The notes under the pieces are model-generated. The model worked only from the letters and a program-made list of their open reading frames with translations, was not told the origin of the DNA and searched no databases. The position numbers and the translations under genes are program-made. From Sedimentisphaerales bacterium (GTDB lineage Bacteria; Planctomycetota; Phycisphaerae; Sedimentisphaerales; Anaerohalosphaeraceae), in contig JAFGPC010000093.1 of the NCBI GenBank assembly GCA_016926155.1, positions 1 to 42,694 of the forward strand: a DNA stretch of 42,694 bases, in the 5' to 3' direction. This document shows, piece by piece, positions 488 through 26,017 of the stretch. Each line of letters opens with the position of its first letter. The first letter of the stretch is position 1.

Positions 488-1834
488 ATGGATATGAATA
501 CCCTGGTAAAGATTCTTGTCGTGCTCGGGCTCGTCGTAGCGGTAGGGGCGGTTATCGCCATTAAGCAGAATCAGGCCCCTTCAACGCCACCCGTTTCAGA
601 AGGGCCTTCGGAGGGTCAAACCACGGGTCTGATCTCTCCCGATTCGCAGGAAAATTCCTCTCCTGCGGCCTCGGCCATGCAACCGCGACCTCAGGCCCTG
701 CCGCGTCTGGTGGATCTGGGGGCGGGCAAGTGTGTCCCCTGCATCATGATGAAGCAGATCCTGGATGAGCTTAGACAGGAGTATAAAAATCGCTTCGAGG
801 TGATCTTTATCGATGTCTGGGAAAATCCCAGCAAGGCAAAGGAATATAAGATCAGCCTCATTCCGACACAGATTTTTTACAATCCCGACGGCAAGGAGAT
901 GTTTCGTCACGAAGGATTTTTCTCCAAAGAGGACATCCTGGGCAAGTGGAAGGAGTTCGGATTCGATTTTACGAGCGAGGGGGCAATGACCGCCTTTGAA
1001 CGGCTGGAACCGGCCAGGGCGGATACGCGCCCGAAAGAGCAGATTTGCTATATGTGCGACAAGGACATCCAGCCCAAAGCCCTTGTCGTCGTACAAACCG
1101 ATAAGGGCCCGGTTCGGTTGTGCGGTCCGCACTGCTATTTTATTCTGTATTCCTGCCTGACCGAGGACAAGACCGGCCTGGCAGAGAAGATCGCATTCAC
1201 CGATTGGACCTCGGGTAAGTCTATCGCCGCTTCCGAAGCGGTGTTCCTGAGCGGGCAGGAGGAAGACACGGGTAAGCCCTGGATCAAGGCCTTTTCCGAC
1301 AGGACCGAGGCTATAGCGGAACGAGCGGTCTCCGGCGGCAGTATCCTGTCGCTGCAGGCCCTGCAGGACAGGGAGTTGTCGCATCGCTGCGGATTCTGCG
1401 ACCGGGCCTGTTATCCGCAGGATGCCGCCAGGGTGCTCGTGGAAGGGGGACTCCAGACGTGGGGGTGCTGCTCGCATTGCGCGCTGGGGGTGGCCGCCCG
1501 AACCGGAAAGGATATTGAAATCCATGAAAAGGATCGTCTGAGCGGCGAAAAAATCGTCGTTAAGACATTCAATGGCGGGATCGCTTCCCTGGAGCCCAGG
1601 ACCGCCGTCGCCTGGTTCGGGCAGCGCAGGAAACCGGACGGGAGTTGGGCCTCGGCCGGCTGTTTCCATCAGGGTTTCTTTGTCAGCGACGACAATCTGA
1701 AGGCATGGGTGGAAAAAAATCCCTACGAAACCGGCCGGATGATCTCCATCAGCCAGGCCCTGGCCGACAAAATGAAGCTTTCTCCGGAGCAAATTATGAA
1801 GGCCTGCAAGATCGGCGAGTGCGCCCCGAAGTAA
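488..1834 (+). CDS. Membrane-anchored thioredoxin fused to NosL/MerB-like Cys-rich domains (ArsF-like, cassette 1)
   Basis: 448 residues. The start at 488 follows an AAAGGA-type ribosome site and gives a single N-terminal membrane anchor (about residues 5-24), then a Pro/Ser-rich linker to about 70. A thioredoxin domain follows with active site CVPC (82-85), a FIDV strand and the cis-Pro segment IPTQIF. This half resembles the ArsF-family proteins of arsEFG-type operons. From about 186 the protein continues with a CYMC pair (187-190), LCGPHC (211-216), and a NosL-like layout ending SILSLQAL. A second block has HRCGFCDRAC (299-308), WGCCSHC (325-331), GCFHQGFF (391-398) and a C-terminal pair C440/C445, resembling the NosL/MerB fold in which a late Cys in an FCxxxxFF-like segment is catalytic in MerB. 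The extra domains are absent from the second copy at 4713. Metal or metalloid binding outside the membrane is inferred. Confidence 0.7.
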   Translation: MDMNTLVKILVVLGLVVAVGAVIAIKQNQAPSTPPVSEGPSEGQTTGLISPDSQENSSPAASAMQPRPQALPRLVDLGAGKCVPCIMMKQILDELRQEYKNRFEVIFIDVWENPSKAKEYKISLIPTQIFYNPDGKEMFRHEGFFSKEDILGKWKEFGFDFTSEGAMTAFERLEPARADTRPKEQICYMCDKDIQPKALVVVQTDKGPVRLCGPHCYFILYSCLTEDKTGLAEKIAFTDWTSGKSIAASEAVFLSGQEEDTGKPWIKAFSDRTEAIAERAVSGGSILSLQALQDRELSHRCGFCDRACYPQDAARVLVEGGLQTWGCCSHCALGVAARTGKDIEIHEKDRLSGEKIVVKTFNGGIASLEPRTAVAWFGQRRKPDGSWASAGCFHQGFFVSDDNLKAWVEKNPYETGRMISISQALADKMKLSPEQIMKACKIGECAPK

Positions 1835-1851
1835 TGGGAGTTCGATAGAAG

Positions 1852-2550
1852 ATGCAGGACTTATTTATCCAATTAACCCGTGCGGTCGAAGGGGCCTGGT
1901 TTGTCGCGGTCGCGGCCTCCTTTCTCTGGGGTATCCTGAGCATCCTGCTGAGCCCCTGTCATCTGGCCAGCATCCCGCTGATCGTGGGCTTTATTGACGG
2001 CCAGGGCAAAATCACCACCCGGCGGGCCTTTGGCATCTCTGTCCTCTTTGCGGTGGGCATCCTGCTGACGATCGGGCTGATCGGAGCGGCGACCGCCATG
2101 ATGGGACGGATCATGGGCGATGTAGGAAGATACGGCAATTACTTTGTGGCGCTGGTGTTTTTTGCCGTGGGGCTGTATTTGCTGGATGTGATCCCCATGC
2201 CGTTTTCCGCGCCGGGTCAGATCGGAATGAAACGAAAGGGATTTCTGGCGGCGTTTATTTTGGGGCTGGTCTTCGGGATCGCCCTGGGACCGTGCACGTT
2301 CGCCTATATGGCGCCCATGCTGGCGGTCACATTCAAGCTAAGCTCCACGAACCTGGCGTACGGAATCCTTCTGCTGGCTGTATACGGGATCGGGCACTGT
2401 TCGGTCATCGTGCTGGCCGGCACCTTTACCGAGGTGGTCCAGAGATACATGAACTGGAACGAGAAATCCAAAGGTGCGATCATCCTAAAGCGGATCTGCG
2501 GCGTGCTGGTCCTGCTGGGCGGCCTTTATATGATCTACGTGGCCCCCTAA
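1852..2550 (+). CDS. CcdA/DsbD-family transmembrane thiol protein (ArsG-like, cassette 1)
   Basis: 232 residues with about six hydrophobic spans. The CcdA signature is modified: SPCHLASIPL (C36) in the first span instead of the usual SPC-x-LPL-x-P, GPCTFAYMAP (C148) in the fourth, and GIGHCSVIV (C183). These three Cys are conserved in the second copy at 5132. CcdA/DsbD proteins pass electrons across the inner membrane from cytoplasmic thioredoxin to exported thiol proteins; ArsG proteins of arsEFG operons are described as belonging to this family and as efflux permeases for aminated aromatic arsenicals. The gene is 17 bases after the membrane thioredoxin gene, its likely redox partner. Whether it moves electrons, arsenicals or both cannot be decided from the sequence. 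Confidence 0.8.
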   Translation: MQDLFIQLTRAVEGAWFVAVAASFLWGILSILLSPCHLASIPLIVGFIDGQGKITTRRAFGISVLFAVGILLTIGLIGAATAMMGRIMGDVGRYGNYFVALVFFAVGLYLLDVIPMPFSAPGQIGMKRKGFLAAFILGLVFGIALGPCTFAYMAPMLAVTFKLSSTNLAYGILLLAVYGIGHCSVIVLAGTFTEVVQRYMNWNEKSKGAIILKRICGVLVLLGGLYMIYVAP

Positions 2551-2596
2551 AACGGCGTAAAAAATAAAAAAACTTGTAACAATGTTCGGAGGGACT

Positions 2597-3283
2597 ATGG
2601 ACAGGCGAAGATTTGTGACATCGACACTGGCGGCCGGAACAGGGATCGGCTTGACAGGCACTCAGACCCTGGGAGAGGCTCGAAAGAGCAAGGTATTGAT
2701 CCTGGGAGTCTCGTGCAGTCCCCGGAAGGGTAAAACCACGGCGACATCGATTCAAGTGGCCCTGGATGCCGCCAAAACGGTCAGTCCGCGTATCGAGGTG
2801 GATTTGCTGGACCTGGCAGGATTTGAAGTGTCCGGCTGGAAAGGCGGCGCAACCCCGTCGGAGGCCATGACATTGAAGGACGATTTTGACTTGCTTTTAC
2901 CCAAGTTTCAGGATCCCAGCCTGGGTGGACTGATCATCGGCTCACCAAGCTACTTTCGTTCGATGAGTTCCCTGTGCAAGGCCTTTCTGGAACGTCTAGC
3001 GGTGCTTCGAAATCCCAAGCTGTTTCTGGCTGACAAACCTGTCGGGGCCTTGTCTGTCGGTGCGTTCCGAAACGGCGGCCAGGAATTGGTAATCGAGCAG
3101 ATTCTTACCGCCATGCTATGTCATGAAGTACTGGTCGTTGGCGGCAAGCCCCGTGCCCATCAGGGGGCGACTCTCTGGAACGCTTTTCAGGATGACATTA
3201 TGAAAGATACATTTGGGATAGATACAGCTAGAAAATTGGGAATACGAGTAGCGGAAGCGGCTCTGCATCAGGCATCCGGATGA
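2597..3283 (+). CDS. TAT-exported flavodoxin-fold NADPH-FMN reductase-like protein (cassette 1)
   Basis: 228 residues. The start at 2597 is chosen over 2582 because GGAGG lies just before it and because it puts a twin-arginine signal at the N-terminus (MDRRRFVTSTLAAGTG). After the signal comes a flavodoxin-like FMN site: LILGVSCSPRKGKTT with the phosphate loop SPRKGKT, then IIGSPSYFRSMS and GALSVGAFRNGGQE, the three usual FMN contact loops of the WrbA/iron-sulfur flavoprotein/NADPH-FMN reductase group. The Cys cluster of true iron-sulfur flavoproteins is missing; a single C40 sits next to the phosphate loop. The protein would fold with FMN in the cytoplasm and then be exported. ArsH is a cytoplasmic relative in arsenic operons, so a role in oxidation or reduction of arsenicals outside the membrane is inferred. 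Confidence 0.8.
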   Translation: MDRRRFVTSTLAAGTGIGLTGTQTLGEARKSKVLILGVSCSPRKGKTTATSIQVALDAAKTVSPRIEVDLLDLAGFEVSGWKGGATPSEAMTLKDDFDLLLPKFQDPSLGGLIIGSPSYFRSMSSLCKAFLERLAVLRNPKLFLADKPVGALSVGAFRNGGQELVIEQILTAMLCHEVLVVGGKPRAHQGATLWNAFQDDIMKDTFGIDTARKLGIRVAEAALHQASG

Positions 3284-3293
3284 AGTACAAAAG

Positions 3294-3521
3294 ATGGATA
3301 CCGATTACATGGAGGCAATGTATGAGCGTTCCCATGAAATCGGTCCGTTGTTTTCCGGATAGAAGGGATTTCCCGTCAGTGCCGACGACTTGCCGGAACT
3401 GACGCGAAGGAAAAATGAAGAGAATACCCTGGATGATTATCGGTATGCAAAGGATTAGATCCGAACCTTTGTGGAATCCTTGCCGGGTATTTTATTTCAG
3501 GAGCAAGTGAATGATTTCTGA
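3294..3521 (+). pseudogene. Degenerate ORF with two in-frame TAG codons
   Basis: From ATG 3294 one frame reads about 75 codons to a TGA at 3519-3521, interrupted by TAG at 3360-3362 and TAG at 3456-3458. The text between the stops looks protein-like and charged (PVSADDLPELTRRKNEEN, then LDDYRYAKD, then a segment containing VESLPGILFQEQ). Other genes here end in TAG (for example the one ending at 5821), so a changed genetic code is unlikely. I do not recognise the family. It is most easily read as the tail of a decayed gene between the two halves of the arsenic island. Its last codons overlap the start of ACR3, whose ribosome site AGGAG lies inside it. Confidence 0.45.
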
Positions 3522-4716
3522 CACTAATATTGTTAAACAACCAGAAGGACTCCGTTTTTTCGAAAGATATCTAACCCTTTGGGTGGGATTATGTATTGCC
3601 GGGGGGATTATCCTGGGCAGACTCGCTCCGGGATTTGCCAGGACACTGGATGGTATGGCGATTCATGTCAATAACGCGCCGGTTGTGTCGATTCCGATCG
3701 CCGTCTGTCTGTTCTTCATGATGTATCCGATCATGGTCAAGATCGATTTTGCCACGGTGCTCAAGGCCGGCAGGAGCATCAAGCCCGTTGGATTGACGCT
3801 TTTTGTAAACTGGGCGATTAAACCGTTTACCATGTACGCGATCAGCCTCTTATTCCTGGGAACCTTGTTTTATGGTTTCATCGGTCCCGATGCGGTAGAC
3901 CAGGTCAAGATGCCTTTCGGACTGGATCTGGCGGTTGGAGATACGTATGGTGTCGGCACAGTCGTGCAAGTCGATGGGATAAAACTGCTGGAAGTACCCT
4001 TGTGGCGAAGCTATCTGGCCGGTTGTATTCTGTTAGGGATCGCCCCGTGTACGGCGATGGTACTGGTTTGGGGATATCTGGCAAAAGGCAATGACGGACA
4101 TACCCTGATAATGGTCGCGATCAATTCGTTGACAATGTTGTTTTTATATGGACCCCTTGGCGGTTTCCTTCTGGGAGTGGGGCGGCTTCCTGTTCCCTGG
4201 CAGGCACTGCTGCTGTCGATTGCCATCTATGTGGCGTTGCCTCTGGTGGCCGGATTTATTTCCCGCAAGTGGATTATCGCTCATAAAGGACTGGATTGGT
4301 TCAGGGAAAAATTTCTTCATGTGCTGACTCCCATTACGATCATTGCCCTGTTGATCACACTGGTTCTGTTGTTCAGCTTCAAGGGAGATACGATTCTTGA
4401 TAATCCTCTGACGATTCTATGGATTGCAATTCCGCTATTTCTCCAGACCTGTCTGATCTTCGCCTTGGGATATGGACTGGCTCGATTGCTCAAGTTGAGT
4501 TATGCTGACGCAGCGCCTTCGGCCATGATCGGTGCATCCAATCATTTCGAAGTGGCGATCGCTACGGCAACGATGCTGTTTGGATTGTCCTCCGGGGCGG
4601 CTCTGGCTACTGTTGTTGGTGTATTGATAGAAGTTCCCGTGATGTTGATGCTGGTAAAGATCTGTCTGAAAACACAGACTTGGTTCCCGGCTCGTGAATT
4701 GGAGATCGAAACATGA
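3511..4716 (+). CDS. acr3: ACR3-family arsenite efflux permease
   Basis: 401 residues with about ten hydrophobic segments. Signature motifs of ACR3 are clear: a helix containing [18 protein letters not shown], then [18 protein letters not shown] with the conserved Cys at residue 180, [19 protein letters not shown], and near the end [19 protein letters not shown] followed by [14 protein letters not shown] (E374). ACR3 exports As(III), driven by the proton gradient, and may also carry antimonite. The start at 3511 is preceded by AGGAG at proper distance. The gene overlaps the next one (thioredoxin) by ATGA, tying cassette 2 to it in one operon. Length matches the family (about 350-400 plus a small insertion near residues 130-155). 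Confidence 0.93.
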
Positions 4717-5135
4717 AGGAAAGCACAAAAAACTTTTTGATCCTGTTTGTTGTTTTGTGTGCGGTCGTCGGCGTTGTCGCCGTGCGTCAGTACCGTCAGG
4801 CAAATGCCATGGCGGAAATGGGTAAGGATGTAGCAGTCGGCGCCGGTACTGCAGTGCTTCTGGAGCTCGGTTCACATAGCTGCATTCCCTGTAAACAGAT
4901 GATGCCCATCCTGGAAGAGCTCAGTACGGAATACAAGGACCATTTTGACGTCAAATTCATCGATGTCTACCAGGATCGGGATGCGGTTAAAAAATACGGC
5001 ATTGAGAAAATCCCAACCCAGATTTTCTTCGGCGCACAGGGGCAGGAACTGTTTCGTCATGTCGGTTTTTATCCGAAGGAAGATATCCTGGCCAAATGGA
5101 AAGAACTGGGCATTGCACTGGAACCATCCAAATGA
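4713..5135 (+). CDS. Membrane-anchored thioredoxin-like protein (ArsF-like, cassette 2)
   Basis: 140 residues: one N-terminal membrane anchor (about residues 6-24), a short linker, and a thioredoxin domain with active site CIPC (C57-C60), FIDVYQD and cis-Pro segment IPTQIF. It is closely similar to residues 70-165 of the larger protein at 488 (shared features CxPC, KFIDV/IFIDV, KEDILxKWKE) but stops there, so it lacks the NosL/MerB-like part. It overlaps ACR3 upstream and the CcdA-like gene downstream by 4 bases each (ATGA), showing strong translational coupling. It likely acts outside the membrane, receiving electrons from the CcdA-like partner and passing them to an exported acceptor. Confidence 0.8.
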
Positions 5136-5821
5136 TCCAGGAATGGTTTGATCAACTCACTCATGCGATGCAGGAACAATCCGTCGTTGCTGCTCTTGCC
5201 GCATTGGCCTGGGGAGTGTTTAGCGTTCTGCTGAGCCCGTGTCACCTGGCCGGGATTCCGCTGGTCATCGGTTATATGTCCACGCAGGGCCGACTCACAG
5301 TACGACGAGCCTTCCTTTTATCGAGTGTCTTCTCTTTCGGCATTCTGCTTACGATCGCTGTTGTCGGATTGATAACCCACCTGTTGGGACGATTACTCGG
5401 AGATATGGGGCCCTGGGCGAATTATTTTGTCAGTACCGTGCTTGTACTCTTCGGTCTGGTTCTTCTGGATGTGATCAAGCTTCCCTGGATCACGGCGGGT
5501 CGGATCCGGATGAAACAACGCGGTATCCTGGGCGCGTTTTTACTGGGTTTGGTATTCGGGATTGCCGTGGGACCATGCACGTTTGCGTTTATGGCGCCGG
5601 TACTGAGTGTCGTGGTATTAGGCTCGGTTTCCGGGTTAATTTTGCTCTTGCTGTACGGGATCGGACACTGCAGTGTGATTGTCATAGCCGGCGTGTCTGC
5701 GGACCGGGTGCAGCGATACCTGAACTGGAATGAAAAATCACATGCTGTACTGCGTTTCAGGAAAGCATGCGGGGTAATCATCATTCTTAGCGGGCTTTAC
5801 ATGCTGTACAAAGCACGATAG
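5132..5821 (+). CDS. CcdA/DsbD-family transmembrane thiol protein (ArsG-like, cassette 2)
   Basis: 229 residues from the ATG at 5132, which overlaps the thioredoxin stop by ATGA; an upstream in-frame ATG at 5096 lies inside that gene and is not preferred. Motifs match the copy at 1852: SPCHLAGIPL (C37), GPCTFAFMAP (C149), GIGHCSVIV (C180) and a shared RYLNWNEKS segment followed by a Cys (C213) and a last hydrophobic span. The family carries reducing power across the inner membrane; ArsG proteins of the same family are reported with organoarsenical resistance. Conservation of the same unusual SPCHLA motif in both copies points to shared function and duplication rather than two unrelated CcdA recruits. 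Confidence 0.8.
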   Translation: MIQEWFDQLTHAMQEQSVVAALAALAWGVFSVLLSPCHLAGIPLVIGYMSTQGRLTVRRAFLLSSVFSFGILLTIAVVGLITHLLGRLLGDMGPWANYFVSTVLVLFGLVLLDVIKLPWITAGRIRMKQRGILGAFLLGLVFGIAVGPCTFAFMAPVLSVVVLGSVSGLILLLLYGIGHCSVIVIAGVSADRVQRYLNWNEKSHAVLRFRKACGVIIILSGLYMLYKAR

Positions 5822-5883
5822 GATGGTCTAACCCTGGCTGTTATATTCAATGATCTTTTAACCTTATTTACGGAGGAAGTGCA

Positions 5884-6558
5884 ATGGATCGACGCACATT
5901 TGTGGCCGCTTCACTGGCGGCCGGGACAGGCGTATCTGCGACCGCACAGGCTGCTTCGTCAGGACCTGTCACTATTCTGGGTATCTGCTGCAGCCCGCGA
6001 AAGGGAAAGACCACATTTCAGTCCATGCAGGTATGTCTGGCCGAGGCGGCCAAAGTGGACACGCGGATCAAGACGGAATTGCTCGAGTTGGCGGGAATGA
6101 AGATCGACGGTGCCCCGGCTGCCGGTTTGCCGTCGGCTTTCGGTGAGGAAGATGAATTCCCGAAGATTCAGGAAAAACTGACGCGGCCGGATGTGGCGGG
6201 AGTGATTCTGGGTACGCCTACGTATTTCGGGAACATGAGTTATCTGGCCACGATCCTGATCGATCGGTGCATTGCCGTACGAAGCAGCTTCGGTTTGGCC
6301 GGTAAGGTGGCCGGTGTCCTGGCCGTCGGCGCGGCCCGTAACGGCGGACAGGAACTGGTGATTGCCTCGGTCCAGGCGGCGTTAATGGCGCAGGAAATGA
6401 TCGTGGTTGGCGACAGCCGGCCCACAGGCCATCGCGGCGCTACCGTGTGGAGCGGGATCAAGGATGGAGTCATGGCCGATGAATGGGGCTTGTCCACGGC
6501 GAAAAATCTGGGCAGGCACGTAGCCCAGGTTGCTTTGCAGGTCTCATCTGCAAAGTAA
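5884..6558 (+). CDS. TAT-exported flavodoxin-fold NADPH-FMN reductase-like protein (cassette 2)
   Basis: 224 residues, start preceded by GGAGGA. The N-terminus MDRRTFVAASLAAGTG is a good twin-arginine signal ending near AQAA (residue 24). The mature part has ILGICCSPRKGKTT (C35-C36 followed by the FMN phosphate loop), ILGTPTYFGNMS and GVLAVGAARNGGQE. It is a clear paralog of the protein at 2597: same signal, same loops and same ending style (GATVWSGIKD versus GATLWNAFQD). Members of this fold usually bind FMN and reduce quinones, metals or nitro compounds with NAD(P)H; exported versions would need another electron donor, for which the CcdA/thioredoxin pair just upstream is a candidate. It is the last gene of the island and is followed by a hairpin at 6601. 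Confidence 0.82.
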   Translation: MDRRTFVAASLAAGTGVSATAQAASSGPVTILGICCSPRKGKTTFQSMQVCLAEAAKVDTRIKTELLELAGMKIDGAPAAGLPSAFGEEDEFPKIQEKLTRPDVAGVILGTPTYFGNMSYLATILIDRCIAVRSSFGLAGKVAGVLAVGAARNGGQELVIASVQAALMAQEMIVVGDSRPTGHRGATVWSGIKDGVMADEWGLSTAKNLGRHVAQVALQVSSAK

Positions 6559-25080: not shown

Positions 25081-25318
25081 TCTAAAATTCCTGCAATACG
25101 TGCCGTTGTTTATCCGCCCTAAGCATGCCCGGCGTAGGGGTACAATTATAGACCAGGAAAGATACCAGATCGGGCTGGGGATGCAAGCCTTTTCCCGATC
25201 CTATCCGATGCGGCTTATCTGCTGCAGACGGAACAGGATTTGGCTACCGGGACTTTCGCATTCACGGAAATCTGATATGATCTTGCTGCGTACATGAATT
25301 CGAATGGGAGAGCGAAGT

Positions 25319-26017
25319 ATGAAAATTCTTGGCATATCGGGCAGCTCGCGGACCCCGGAGCAGTCTTCGACATACCGGCTGGTTCGGCGGGTGCTGGATG
25401 CGACGGACTGCGAGACGGAACTGATCAGCCTGGCCGGAAAGAAGATCGGCGGGTGTATCGCGTGTCTTGGCTGTGTGAAGGACAACGTCTGCGTCGTGCA
25501 GGACGATATGACATCGTTGCGTGAAAAAATCGTAGAAGCCGACGCCTATGTGATCGGAGCGCCTAACTTTTACGCCGGGCTCAACGCCCTGACGCACGCG
25601 TTTCTGGAGCGGTGGTACCAGTTCCGCCATCAAATGGGCGATCTGCTCTGGGGCAAGCTGGCCGTAGCTCTCGGCGTGGGCGGCTCCGGCGGAGAGGCCG
25701 TGATCCGGCAGATCGAGACAATCCTGGACTACAGCTTTATCGAGACGATCGCGACGGTGAGCGGACAGGGAGCGGCCTGCTGCTTTACCTGCGGTTACGG
25801 ACAGACGTGTCAGGTGGGTGTGCCCCAAATGCTCTATGGCGAGGGTGTGCAGATCACCGAGGACATGATCCCGGATATTGCCAAACAGCCCAAAGTCCTT
25901 GCCGCGGCCGAGAAGGCAGGAAAGCTGCTGGGACAGCGCCTGAAAAAACACGACCGCGCTGTCGTGGCCAGAAAGATGCAGCGGCTCATGATGGAACGCT
26001 TCAAGACCTCGACGTAA
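25319..26017 (+). CDS. Iron-sulfur flavoprotein-like oxidoreductase
   Basis: 232 residues from the ATG at 25319, chosen over 25304 because GGGAGAG lies right before it. The FMN phosphate loop GISGSSRTPEQSST starts the protein. A compact Cys motif C46-x2-C49-x2-C52-x5-C58 fits the CX2CX2CX4-7C cluster motif of archaeal-type iron-sulfur flavoproteins. YVIGAPNFYAGLNALTHAF and VALGVGGSGGEA supply the other FMN contacts. A second Cys group, C154-C155-x2-C158-x5-C164, is unusual. It is not exported, unlike the paralogs at 2597 and 5884. It probably carries electrons to small molecules or stress substrates; the partner is unknown. Confidence 0.82.
   Translation: MKILGISGSSRTPEQSSTYRLVRRVLDATDCETELISLAGKKIGGCIACLGCVKDNVCVVQDDMTSLREKIVEADAYVIGAPNFYAGLNALTHAFLERWYQFRHQMGDLLWGKLAVALGVGGSGGEAVIRQIETILDYSFIETIATVSGQGAACCFTCGYGQTCQVGVPQMLYGEGVQITEDMIPDIAKQPKVLAAAEKAGKLLGQRLKKHDRAVVARKMQRLMMERFKTST

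Follow-up and report, generated by a model that had tools for sequence, protein, structure and literature searches.

The locus studied here raises the question of what a redox system directed to the far side of the membrane, present twice, does in an arsenic resistance (ars) operon. It lies at the beginning of the window, by which we mean the whole stretch of 42,694 nucleotides that was analyzed; this is one entire contig (C145; JAFGPC010000093.1) of a 5.0 Mb Sedimentisphaerales genome in 222 contigs (GCA_016926155.1, phylum Planctomycetota). On the plus strand, to which all of the positions below refer, the genes run in the order end of arsP, arsE, a gene for a 448-residue fusion protein, ccdA1, flavA, acr3, a short thioredoxin gene (trx2), ccdA2 and flavB. 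The original prediction that a thioredoxin (Trx), a CcdA-family protein and a flavoprotein are encoded in this order twice, at 488–3283 and 4713–6558 on either side of acr3, was borne out by the Pfam and TIGR matches. We tentatively read the whole as an ars locus in which an outward dithiol relay feeds a MerB-like domain and the flavoprotein for thiol-dependent arsenical chemistry, and it may represent an undescribed way to treat arsenic compounds outside the inner membrane. Our literature search, which covered titles, the starts of abstracts and few subscription papers, returned neither a twin-arginine (Tat) flavoprotein nor a Trx-MerB fusion in ars operons. Within the reach of that search, two features are new: an optional exported flavoprotein, and a Trx-NosL-MerB fusion with an all-cysteine site.

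The fusion is encoded at 488–1834. Both cassettes had been predicted to contain a membrane-anchored thioredoxin, which holds for each copy, but the first also carries a NosL-like domain and a domain with the fold of MerB, the organomercurial lyase that cleaves carbon–mercury bonds, both of which had been overlooked. Its anchor is followed by the thioredoxin domain (Pfam Thioredoxin, residues 73–151), the NosL-like domain and the MerB-like domain (Pfam MerB, residues 316–425). The Pfam MerB match reaches 65.9 bits against a cut-off of 27, while the NCBIfam MerB score is below its cut-off (24.3 versus 200). In the predicted structure (predicted local distance difference test score, pLDDT, 83.8), residues 299–435 superpose on MerB 3f0o with a Z score of 14.7 and a root-mean-square deviation (rmsd) of 3.3 over 125 aligned residues, and residues 300–438 on MerB2 5c17 with a Z score of 12.6 and an rmsd of 3.2 over 130 residues. 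When a profile of 19 homologues was compared to all solved chains (E-values up to 1), MerB2 was the sole match, with an E-value of 7e-12.

In the alignment to MerB2 5c17, Cys328 and Cys392, which delimit the putative site (1469–1663), occupy the positions of the first and second catalytic cysteines (Cys96 and Cys159, respectively). Cys331 aligns with a serine of MerB2, which we take to correspond to Asp99 of MerB. All three cysteines are invariant in the 19 aligned sequences. According to PMC8261052, Cys96, Asp99 and Cys159 are the essential residues of MerB. The fusion family does not retain this triad: the two cysteine positions are kept, and the Asp99 position is a cysteine in 19 of 19 sequences. 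Further invariant cysteines are found at positions 187, 190, 212, 216, 301, 304, 327, 440 and 445. The middle domain is weakly NosL-like, as 10 of 18 members match PF05573 at E ≤1 (best 1.7e-4) and the score of the window's own protein is under the Pfam cut-off (16.3 versus 24 bits); DUF2685 matches it about as weakly (12 of 18 members, best 0.0032). Among 392 genomes sampled evenly from the phylum, four encode the MerB-like domain. The flavoprotein is present in three of these, the source genome included, but not in G114, where arsR, arsP and arsE accompany the fusion, arsF and a gene for an ArsG-type protein.

The source genome contains a third related ars locus (L167) at positions 1–5383 of contig C40, with arsR, arsP, arsE, a DGC protein and a Trx-NosL-MerB fusion that is 82.5% identical to that of the window over 423 residues. 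Its ccdA is truncated by the contig end, and a third flavoprotein may lie past it. Since the contigs break off within these operons, each of the two is seen only in part.

The third member of each cassette is a flavin mononucleotide (FMN) flavoprotein, as had been predicted: FlavA (2597–3283, in an open frame that starts at 2582; WrbA-like) matches FMN_red (PF03358) with 67.6 bits and FlavB (5884–6558) with 75.4 bits, against a cut-off of 24, and both bear a twin-arginine signal (MDRRRFV in FlavA). The FlavB model (pLDDT 92.6) has a flavodoxin fold. The nearest folds are those of PnpB and WrbA (PnpB 4la4: Z 22.9, rmsd 2.4, 171 aligned residues), and the fold is also similar to that of ArsH 7ple (Z 21.1, rmsd 2.6, 180 aligned residues, 9% identity). 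In the family, Ser37 and Arg39 of the SPR loop and Arg152 and Gly154–Glu157 of the RNGGQE motif are invariant. WrbA also has this GGQE motif. Cysteines are conserved at position 36 in 71 of 73 rows, at position 122 in 72 and at column 169 in 62; the first two are presumably absent from WrbA and ArsH. The window proteins further differ from WrbA and ArsH in their twin-arginine signal and in scoring under the quinone-oxidoreductase cut-offs (FlavA and FlavB, respectively: NF002999, 24.9 and 54.2 versus 141; TIGR01755, 21.7 and 40.7 versus 132.5). An ArsH model, which we take to be part of NCBIfam, was not among the NCBIfam matches of either protein at E 0.1. The twin-arginine pair is present in 69 of the 73 aligned rows, those of the window among them. 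The exceptions are L077, in which it lies before the cut used, and L068, L093 and L102, which have none.

The proteins that precede the flavoprotein form the better defined part of the system. ArsE (229–468), a cytoplasmic thioredoxin-like protein (redox-active disulfide protein 2), matches TIGR00412 (MTH895/ArsE) with 103.9 bits against a cut-off of 62; it belongs to the same unit, although the earlier description did not include it. CcdA1 (1852–2550) and CcdA2 (5132–5821) are of the predicted SPCHLA type within the CcdA family (DsbD_TM, PF02683; 45.8 and 47.8 bits, cut-off 27.1). The second membrane-anchored thioredoxin (4713–5135; PF00085, 48.6 bits) is without the NosL/MerB part, and the active-site motifs of the exported thioredoxins are CVPC or CIPC. 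The predicted ATGA couplings are present between acr3 and trx2 (4713–4716), between trx2 and ccdA2 (5132–5135) and also between arsP and arsE (229–232), but none joins the genes of the first cassette to each other. In the SPCH-type rows, two of which are the window's own proteins, Cys36 is conserved in 40 of 40, Cys148 in 39, Cys183 in 38 and Cys216 in 39. The ArsG-type proteins, whose motif is SPCP, also keep two conserved cysteines (11 of 11 and 10 of 11). As judged from these alignments, the cysteine pair in both CcdA types points to an electron conduit more than to a permease, although this is no proof.

The thioredoxins and CcdA-family proteins of the window had been equated with ArsF and ArsG, and these names were dropped. 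The ArsF model NF040494 matches neither window thioredoxin at E 0.1, nor anything in the source genome at E 1e-10, and the CcdA proteins reach 47.9 and 62.6 bits with the ArsG model NF040495, far under its cut-off of 200. Of the proteins compared with NCBIfam, all seven of the ArsG type are above that cut-off (249.7 to 284.5), and none of three of the SPCH type is. Both kinds occur beside the flavoprotein: by motif, SPCH is found in 38 and SPCP in 11 of the 80 flavoprotein loci described below, and by profile the counts are 41 and 12, with one locus holding both. Genuine ArsF is likewise found near the flavoprotein in other loci (two of two tested pass NF040494). Nevertheless, the flavoprotein could not be retained as a general ArsEFG subunit. 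ArsF occurs in 28 of the 392 phylum genomes (26 above cut-off) and together with the flavoprotein in seven, of which only G277 has both on the same contig within 5 kb, several of the seven being fragmented into many short contigs. A third kind of CcdA protein (LPCNPG) was observed in L069 and L088; L057 groups with them, the motif not being seen there. This kind has two recurrent partners (clusters 45 and 46) in or near some ars loci.

The link between the flavoprotein and arsenic genes was assessed in a scan of one genome per species across 84,980 species. It returned 115 relatives, and the analysis used the 80 that ranked highest, a choice that biases the set. A locus was considered linked when its flanks of up to 10 kb contained at least two families of a set that includes the module's own thioredoxin and CcdA. 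By neighbor-family profiles, 59 of these best 80 relatives are in ars-type loci. When arsP, acr3, arsC and arsM alone are counted, at least one is present in 58 and at least two in 33. L037 and L086, with fewer than two families but with arsP or arsC beside arsR, were labeled linked in the tree. Full flanks of 10 kb were available for 27 loci, of which 21 are linked, or 19 by the strict genes; the six that are not linked are L042, L049, L060, L062, L093 and L102. The linked rows span seven phyla (Planctomycetota, Acidobacteriota, Verrucomicrobiota, Hydrogenedentota, Omnitrophota, Calditrichota and KSB1), and their composite order, complete in L073, is arsR-arsP-arsE-(DGC)-(arsF)-Trx[-NosL-MerB]-(Trx fusion)-ccdA-FLAV-arsC-arsM-acr3. 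As a control, six stretches of ~19 kb chosen as unlinked were compared with these profiles: five gave no match and the sixth gave one arsM-like match, which gauges the false-positive rate only. In 29 unlinked loci, neighbors up to three genes away were shared with at most three other loci, barring a frame beside the broken L099 flavoprotein. No recurrent setting other than the ars operons was found for the family, yet it also occurs outside them. The linkage did not behave as a clean trait of a single clade, with 13 label changes on the flavoprotein tree versus a shuffled mean of 17.3.

Other proteins recur in these loci. A cysteine-rich protein with a DGC domain (PF08859) is present in 19 of the 80 (for example L030:2458–2841), often beside arsE. 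A protein of ~325 residues, which ends in a thioredoxin domain and in another part weakly resembles peptidylprolyl isomerases, is encoded at L034:8244–9221 and in 11 other loci, often just before ccdA. In Acidobacteriota (L056:10962–14352, L048 and L064), the genes for an ArsP-type permease and for a multiheme cytochrome c of ~800 residues come, in this order, between the flavoprotein gene and acr3; the cytochrome could be an additional link for electrons.

The DsbD/CcdA systems are a known case in which thiol electrons are passed outward by a CcdA-like protein that has a thioredoxin on either side of the membrane. In the mechanism that we propose, cytoplasmic reducing power would pass through ArsE to the CcdA-like membrane protein, with its cysteine pair 36/148, and from there to the exported, anchored thioredoxin, which would drive thiol-dependent handling of organoarsenicals on the far side of the membrane. 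In the first cassette, the NosL/MerB-like part is tethered to this thioredoxin, and its three-cysteine pocket might bind trivalent arsenic. The periplasm is not expected to contain NAD(P)H; therefore, an exported FMN reductase needs another donor, and the neighboring thioredoxin is the obvious candidate. The flavoprotein would take thiol electrons, probably via its family cysteines, and reduce an organoarsenical, and ArsP, ArsM, ArsC and ACR3 of such operons would make or move the arsenicals. The genes, their domains, the conserved cysteines and the repeated occurrence among ars genes are observed; of the mechanism built on them, the ArsE-CcdA-thioredoxin relay is likely, while we infer the direction of the electrons, the substrate and the contact between thioredoxin and flavoprotein; the last is a guess, which we consider slightly better than its rivals. 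The earlier proposal of an electron path through CcdA and thioredoxin fits the conserved cysteines, but its extension to the flavoprotein sits poorly with the weak co-variation described below. If the mechanism is true, organoarsenical chemistry takes place at the outer face of the inner membrane, and the ArsG family, now named a permease, is recast as an electron conduit.

Several observations weigh against this reading. The flavoprotein, which had been proposed as a steady third member, is absent from 15 of the 21 phylum genomes with a strong SPCHLA-type CcdA (>200 bits) and present in six, the source genome included. Of the 15 CcdA loci without it, 14 carry arsP, arsE, acr3, arsC or arsM, and the fifteenth (G126) has only ArsR-type regulators and a thioredoxin fusion. 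As compared to the distance correlations among ArsE, thioredoxin and CcdA (0.58–0.62), those of the flavoprotein are weak (CcdA 0.29, ArsE 0.23 and thioredoxin 0.15; 0.15 to 0.38 when ArsP is included), and that with ACR3 is 0.09 (p 0.11). The predicted linkage to arsenic genes, clear among the best relatives, is also looser in the even draws, which overlap in that some genomes are common to both collections. The flavoprotein is present in 17 of the 392 phylum genomes, and among the Planctomycetota matches of at least 150 bits, 9 of 15 lie among ars genes, or 7 of 13 without the window. The linked ones are both window copies, G127 (where the gene caller drew no flavoprotein and the profile match lies 32 bp after ccdA), G261, G277 (C240), G290, G209, G160 and G041; the unlinked ones are G235, G167, G277 (C387), G357, G310 (at a contig end) and G028. 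Two of four weaker matches are linked, G142 (with an internal stop) and G145. In Verrucomicrobiota, 18 of 174 genomes have a match. Of the five above 240 bits, one is linked, that of G411, which is the center genome chosen for its linked locus and not a fair draw; none of the remaining four is linked, and neither is any of four weaker matches examined. FlavB has alanine in the Cys122 and Cys169 columns and is the sole row of 73 without Cys122. TatC was not found in the source genome with two models in the 222-contig assembly, although it is present in 23 of 24 relatives searched alongside; this is probably an assembly gap. Finally, Paracoccus ArsH reduces phenylarsonic acid via FMNH2 (PMC9137774), which speaks for the proposed flavin chemistry on an aromatic arsonic acid, yet the same paper ties ArsH to higher toxicity of organo-As(V). 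Reduction alone would therefore not protect, and protection would need a following step, for example C–As cleavage or capture in a three-cysteine pocket.

Given the strong mutual correlations of ArsE, thioredoxin and CcdA, the weaker values of the flavoprotein and the frequency of CcdA without it, the former three form a tight core, with which the flavoprotein recurs as an optional partner rather than as a constant third part. The same data are what a different account, doubtful but still the most serious competitor, would predict: the relay would supply periplasmic thiol proteins, such as the MerB/NosL-like domain or ArsF, and nothing else, and the flavoprotein would be an independent exported quinone or arsenical oxidoreductase with WrbA/ArsH-like chemistry, kept in ars operons as separate arsenic protection. 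The quinone reductases as nearest folds, and ars loci that have the flavoprotein and no CcdA found within 10 kb, such as L085 (arsR, arsC and acr3), agree with such independence. It is at odds with the gene order, since the flavoprotein adjoins CcdA in all six evenly drawn genomes, the source genome included, that have it together with a strong SPCHLA-type CcdA, and ccdA directly precedes it in the five other genomes with both (32–73 bp between the matches), and with the finding that two kinds of CcdA partner the flavoprotein.

The role of the MerB-like domain can also be read in several ways. As compared to MerB and MerB2, it shares the fold and the two catalytic cysteine positions, and differs in its fusion to a thioredoxin and a NosL-like domain, its membrane anchor and the cysteine at the Asp99 position. 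The replacement of this residue, essential in MerB, throughout the family and the nine further invariant cysteines would suit a system for thiol and arsenite maintenance, in which periplasmic thiols are maintained in the reduced state by the relay during As(III) stress, with the MerB-like domain as a non-catalytic arsenite sponge or chaperone. We consider this unlikely; the invariance of the catalytic cysteine positions and of many other residues of the domain suggests more than binding. Known bacterial C–As bond cleavage, by ArsI, requires oxygen, and anoxic soils demethylate arsenic by poorly known routes (cf. PMC10579292). A still less likely, though specific, proposal is that the fusion is an exported, oxygen-independent C–As lyase: its site would have changed from Cys-Asp-Cys to Cys-Cys-Cys, the thioredoxin of the same chain, re-reduced by CcdA, would release the product, and the flavoprotein would reduce pentavalent organoarsenicals to the trivalent form. 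That the MerB-like part serves mercury instead of arsenic is highly improbable. The only solved-structure relative by sequence is MerB2, in a mercury-bound form, and weaker MerA relatives are present in 21 of 21 fusion-carrying genomes, but MerA is above its curated cut-off in only one of them, the other 20 lacking such a match, and 20 of the 23 flavoprotein loci that match the fusion family carry arsP, acr3, arsC or arsM.

We compared the locus to known systems. The ArsEFG system, for the reduction of nitrated aromatic arsenicals, was reportedly described by Chen, Zhang and Rosen in 2019. The window resembles it in its ArsE and in its CcdA-family proteins, ArsG being of that family, and genuine ArsF and ArsG adjoin the same flavoprotein in other loci. 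On the other hand, the window thioredoxins are not ArsF, and the CcdA proteins fall well short of ArsG. The redox core of the arrangement has been in print since 2010, and the arrangement is real and recurrent. A published account of ars operons has the same three redox parts, in eight instances in seven organisms, and reads them as possible ArsC helpers; its main text contains 'flavo', 'MerB' and 'twin' zero times and names FMN reductase twice, for ArsH. The selenoprotein systems SAO and Tso (Haft and Gwadz 2023; Haft and Tolstoy 2025), as reviewed in PMC13188914, share the theme of a MerB-like lyase with thioredoxin-like and DsbD-like proteins, and ArsP of the present operons is a distant relative of SaoE. 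However, the window proteins are far under the SaoL, SaoT and TsoB cut-offs (SaoL NF040728, 15.8 versus 140 bits; the window arsP being only a fragment). Since the frames are open without internal stops, the window genes contain no selenocysteine codon.

The two cassettes had been regarded as a duplication, which stands as a description of gene order but probably not of descent. The copies are homologous, with a copy-to-copy identity of 54% over 85 residues for the thioredoxin part, 51% for CcdA and 45% for the flavoprotein. FlavA falls in a clade of 26 rows (support 100/100) that excludes FlavB, and their sisterhood is marginally rejected, the constraint costing 58.9 log-likelihood units (approximately unbiased test, AU, p 0.041). 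For ccdA1 and ccdA2, sisterhood is not rejected, as the constrained tree is 2.07 units better (p 0.57); this tree has long branches and was given little weight. The expectation that the copies be sister or co-evolving thus failed in part, for the flavoproteins and their weak co-variation. Tandem duplication of the whole cassette was set aside, FlavA and FlavB not being sisters and the ccdA history giving no decision. Judging from the trees, the two cassettes are probably separate lineages. Because FlavB lost two cysteines and the ccdA2 branch is long (1.12), the second cassette appears divergent, and it may have changed function or be decaying.

The remaining features complete the locus. Base 1 of the window falls inside arsP, of which only a C-terminal fragment (2–232) of this organoarsenical permease family is present (Pfam ArsP_1, 71.3 bits, profile positions 223–293 of 294). 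ACR3 (3511–4716), the arsenite efflux transporter, matches TIGR00832 with 377 bits against a cut-off of 282.8. The gap between flavA and acr3 (3284–3510) has no open frame of at least 70 residues and may be the remnant of a lost gene. Another, distant FMN_red-type flavoprotein with a very long tree branch is encoded at 25304–26017, with no adjoining ars genes, and a further weak FMN_red-type match lies on contig C216 (L168) of the same genome.

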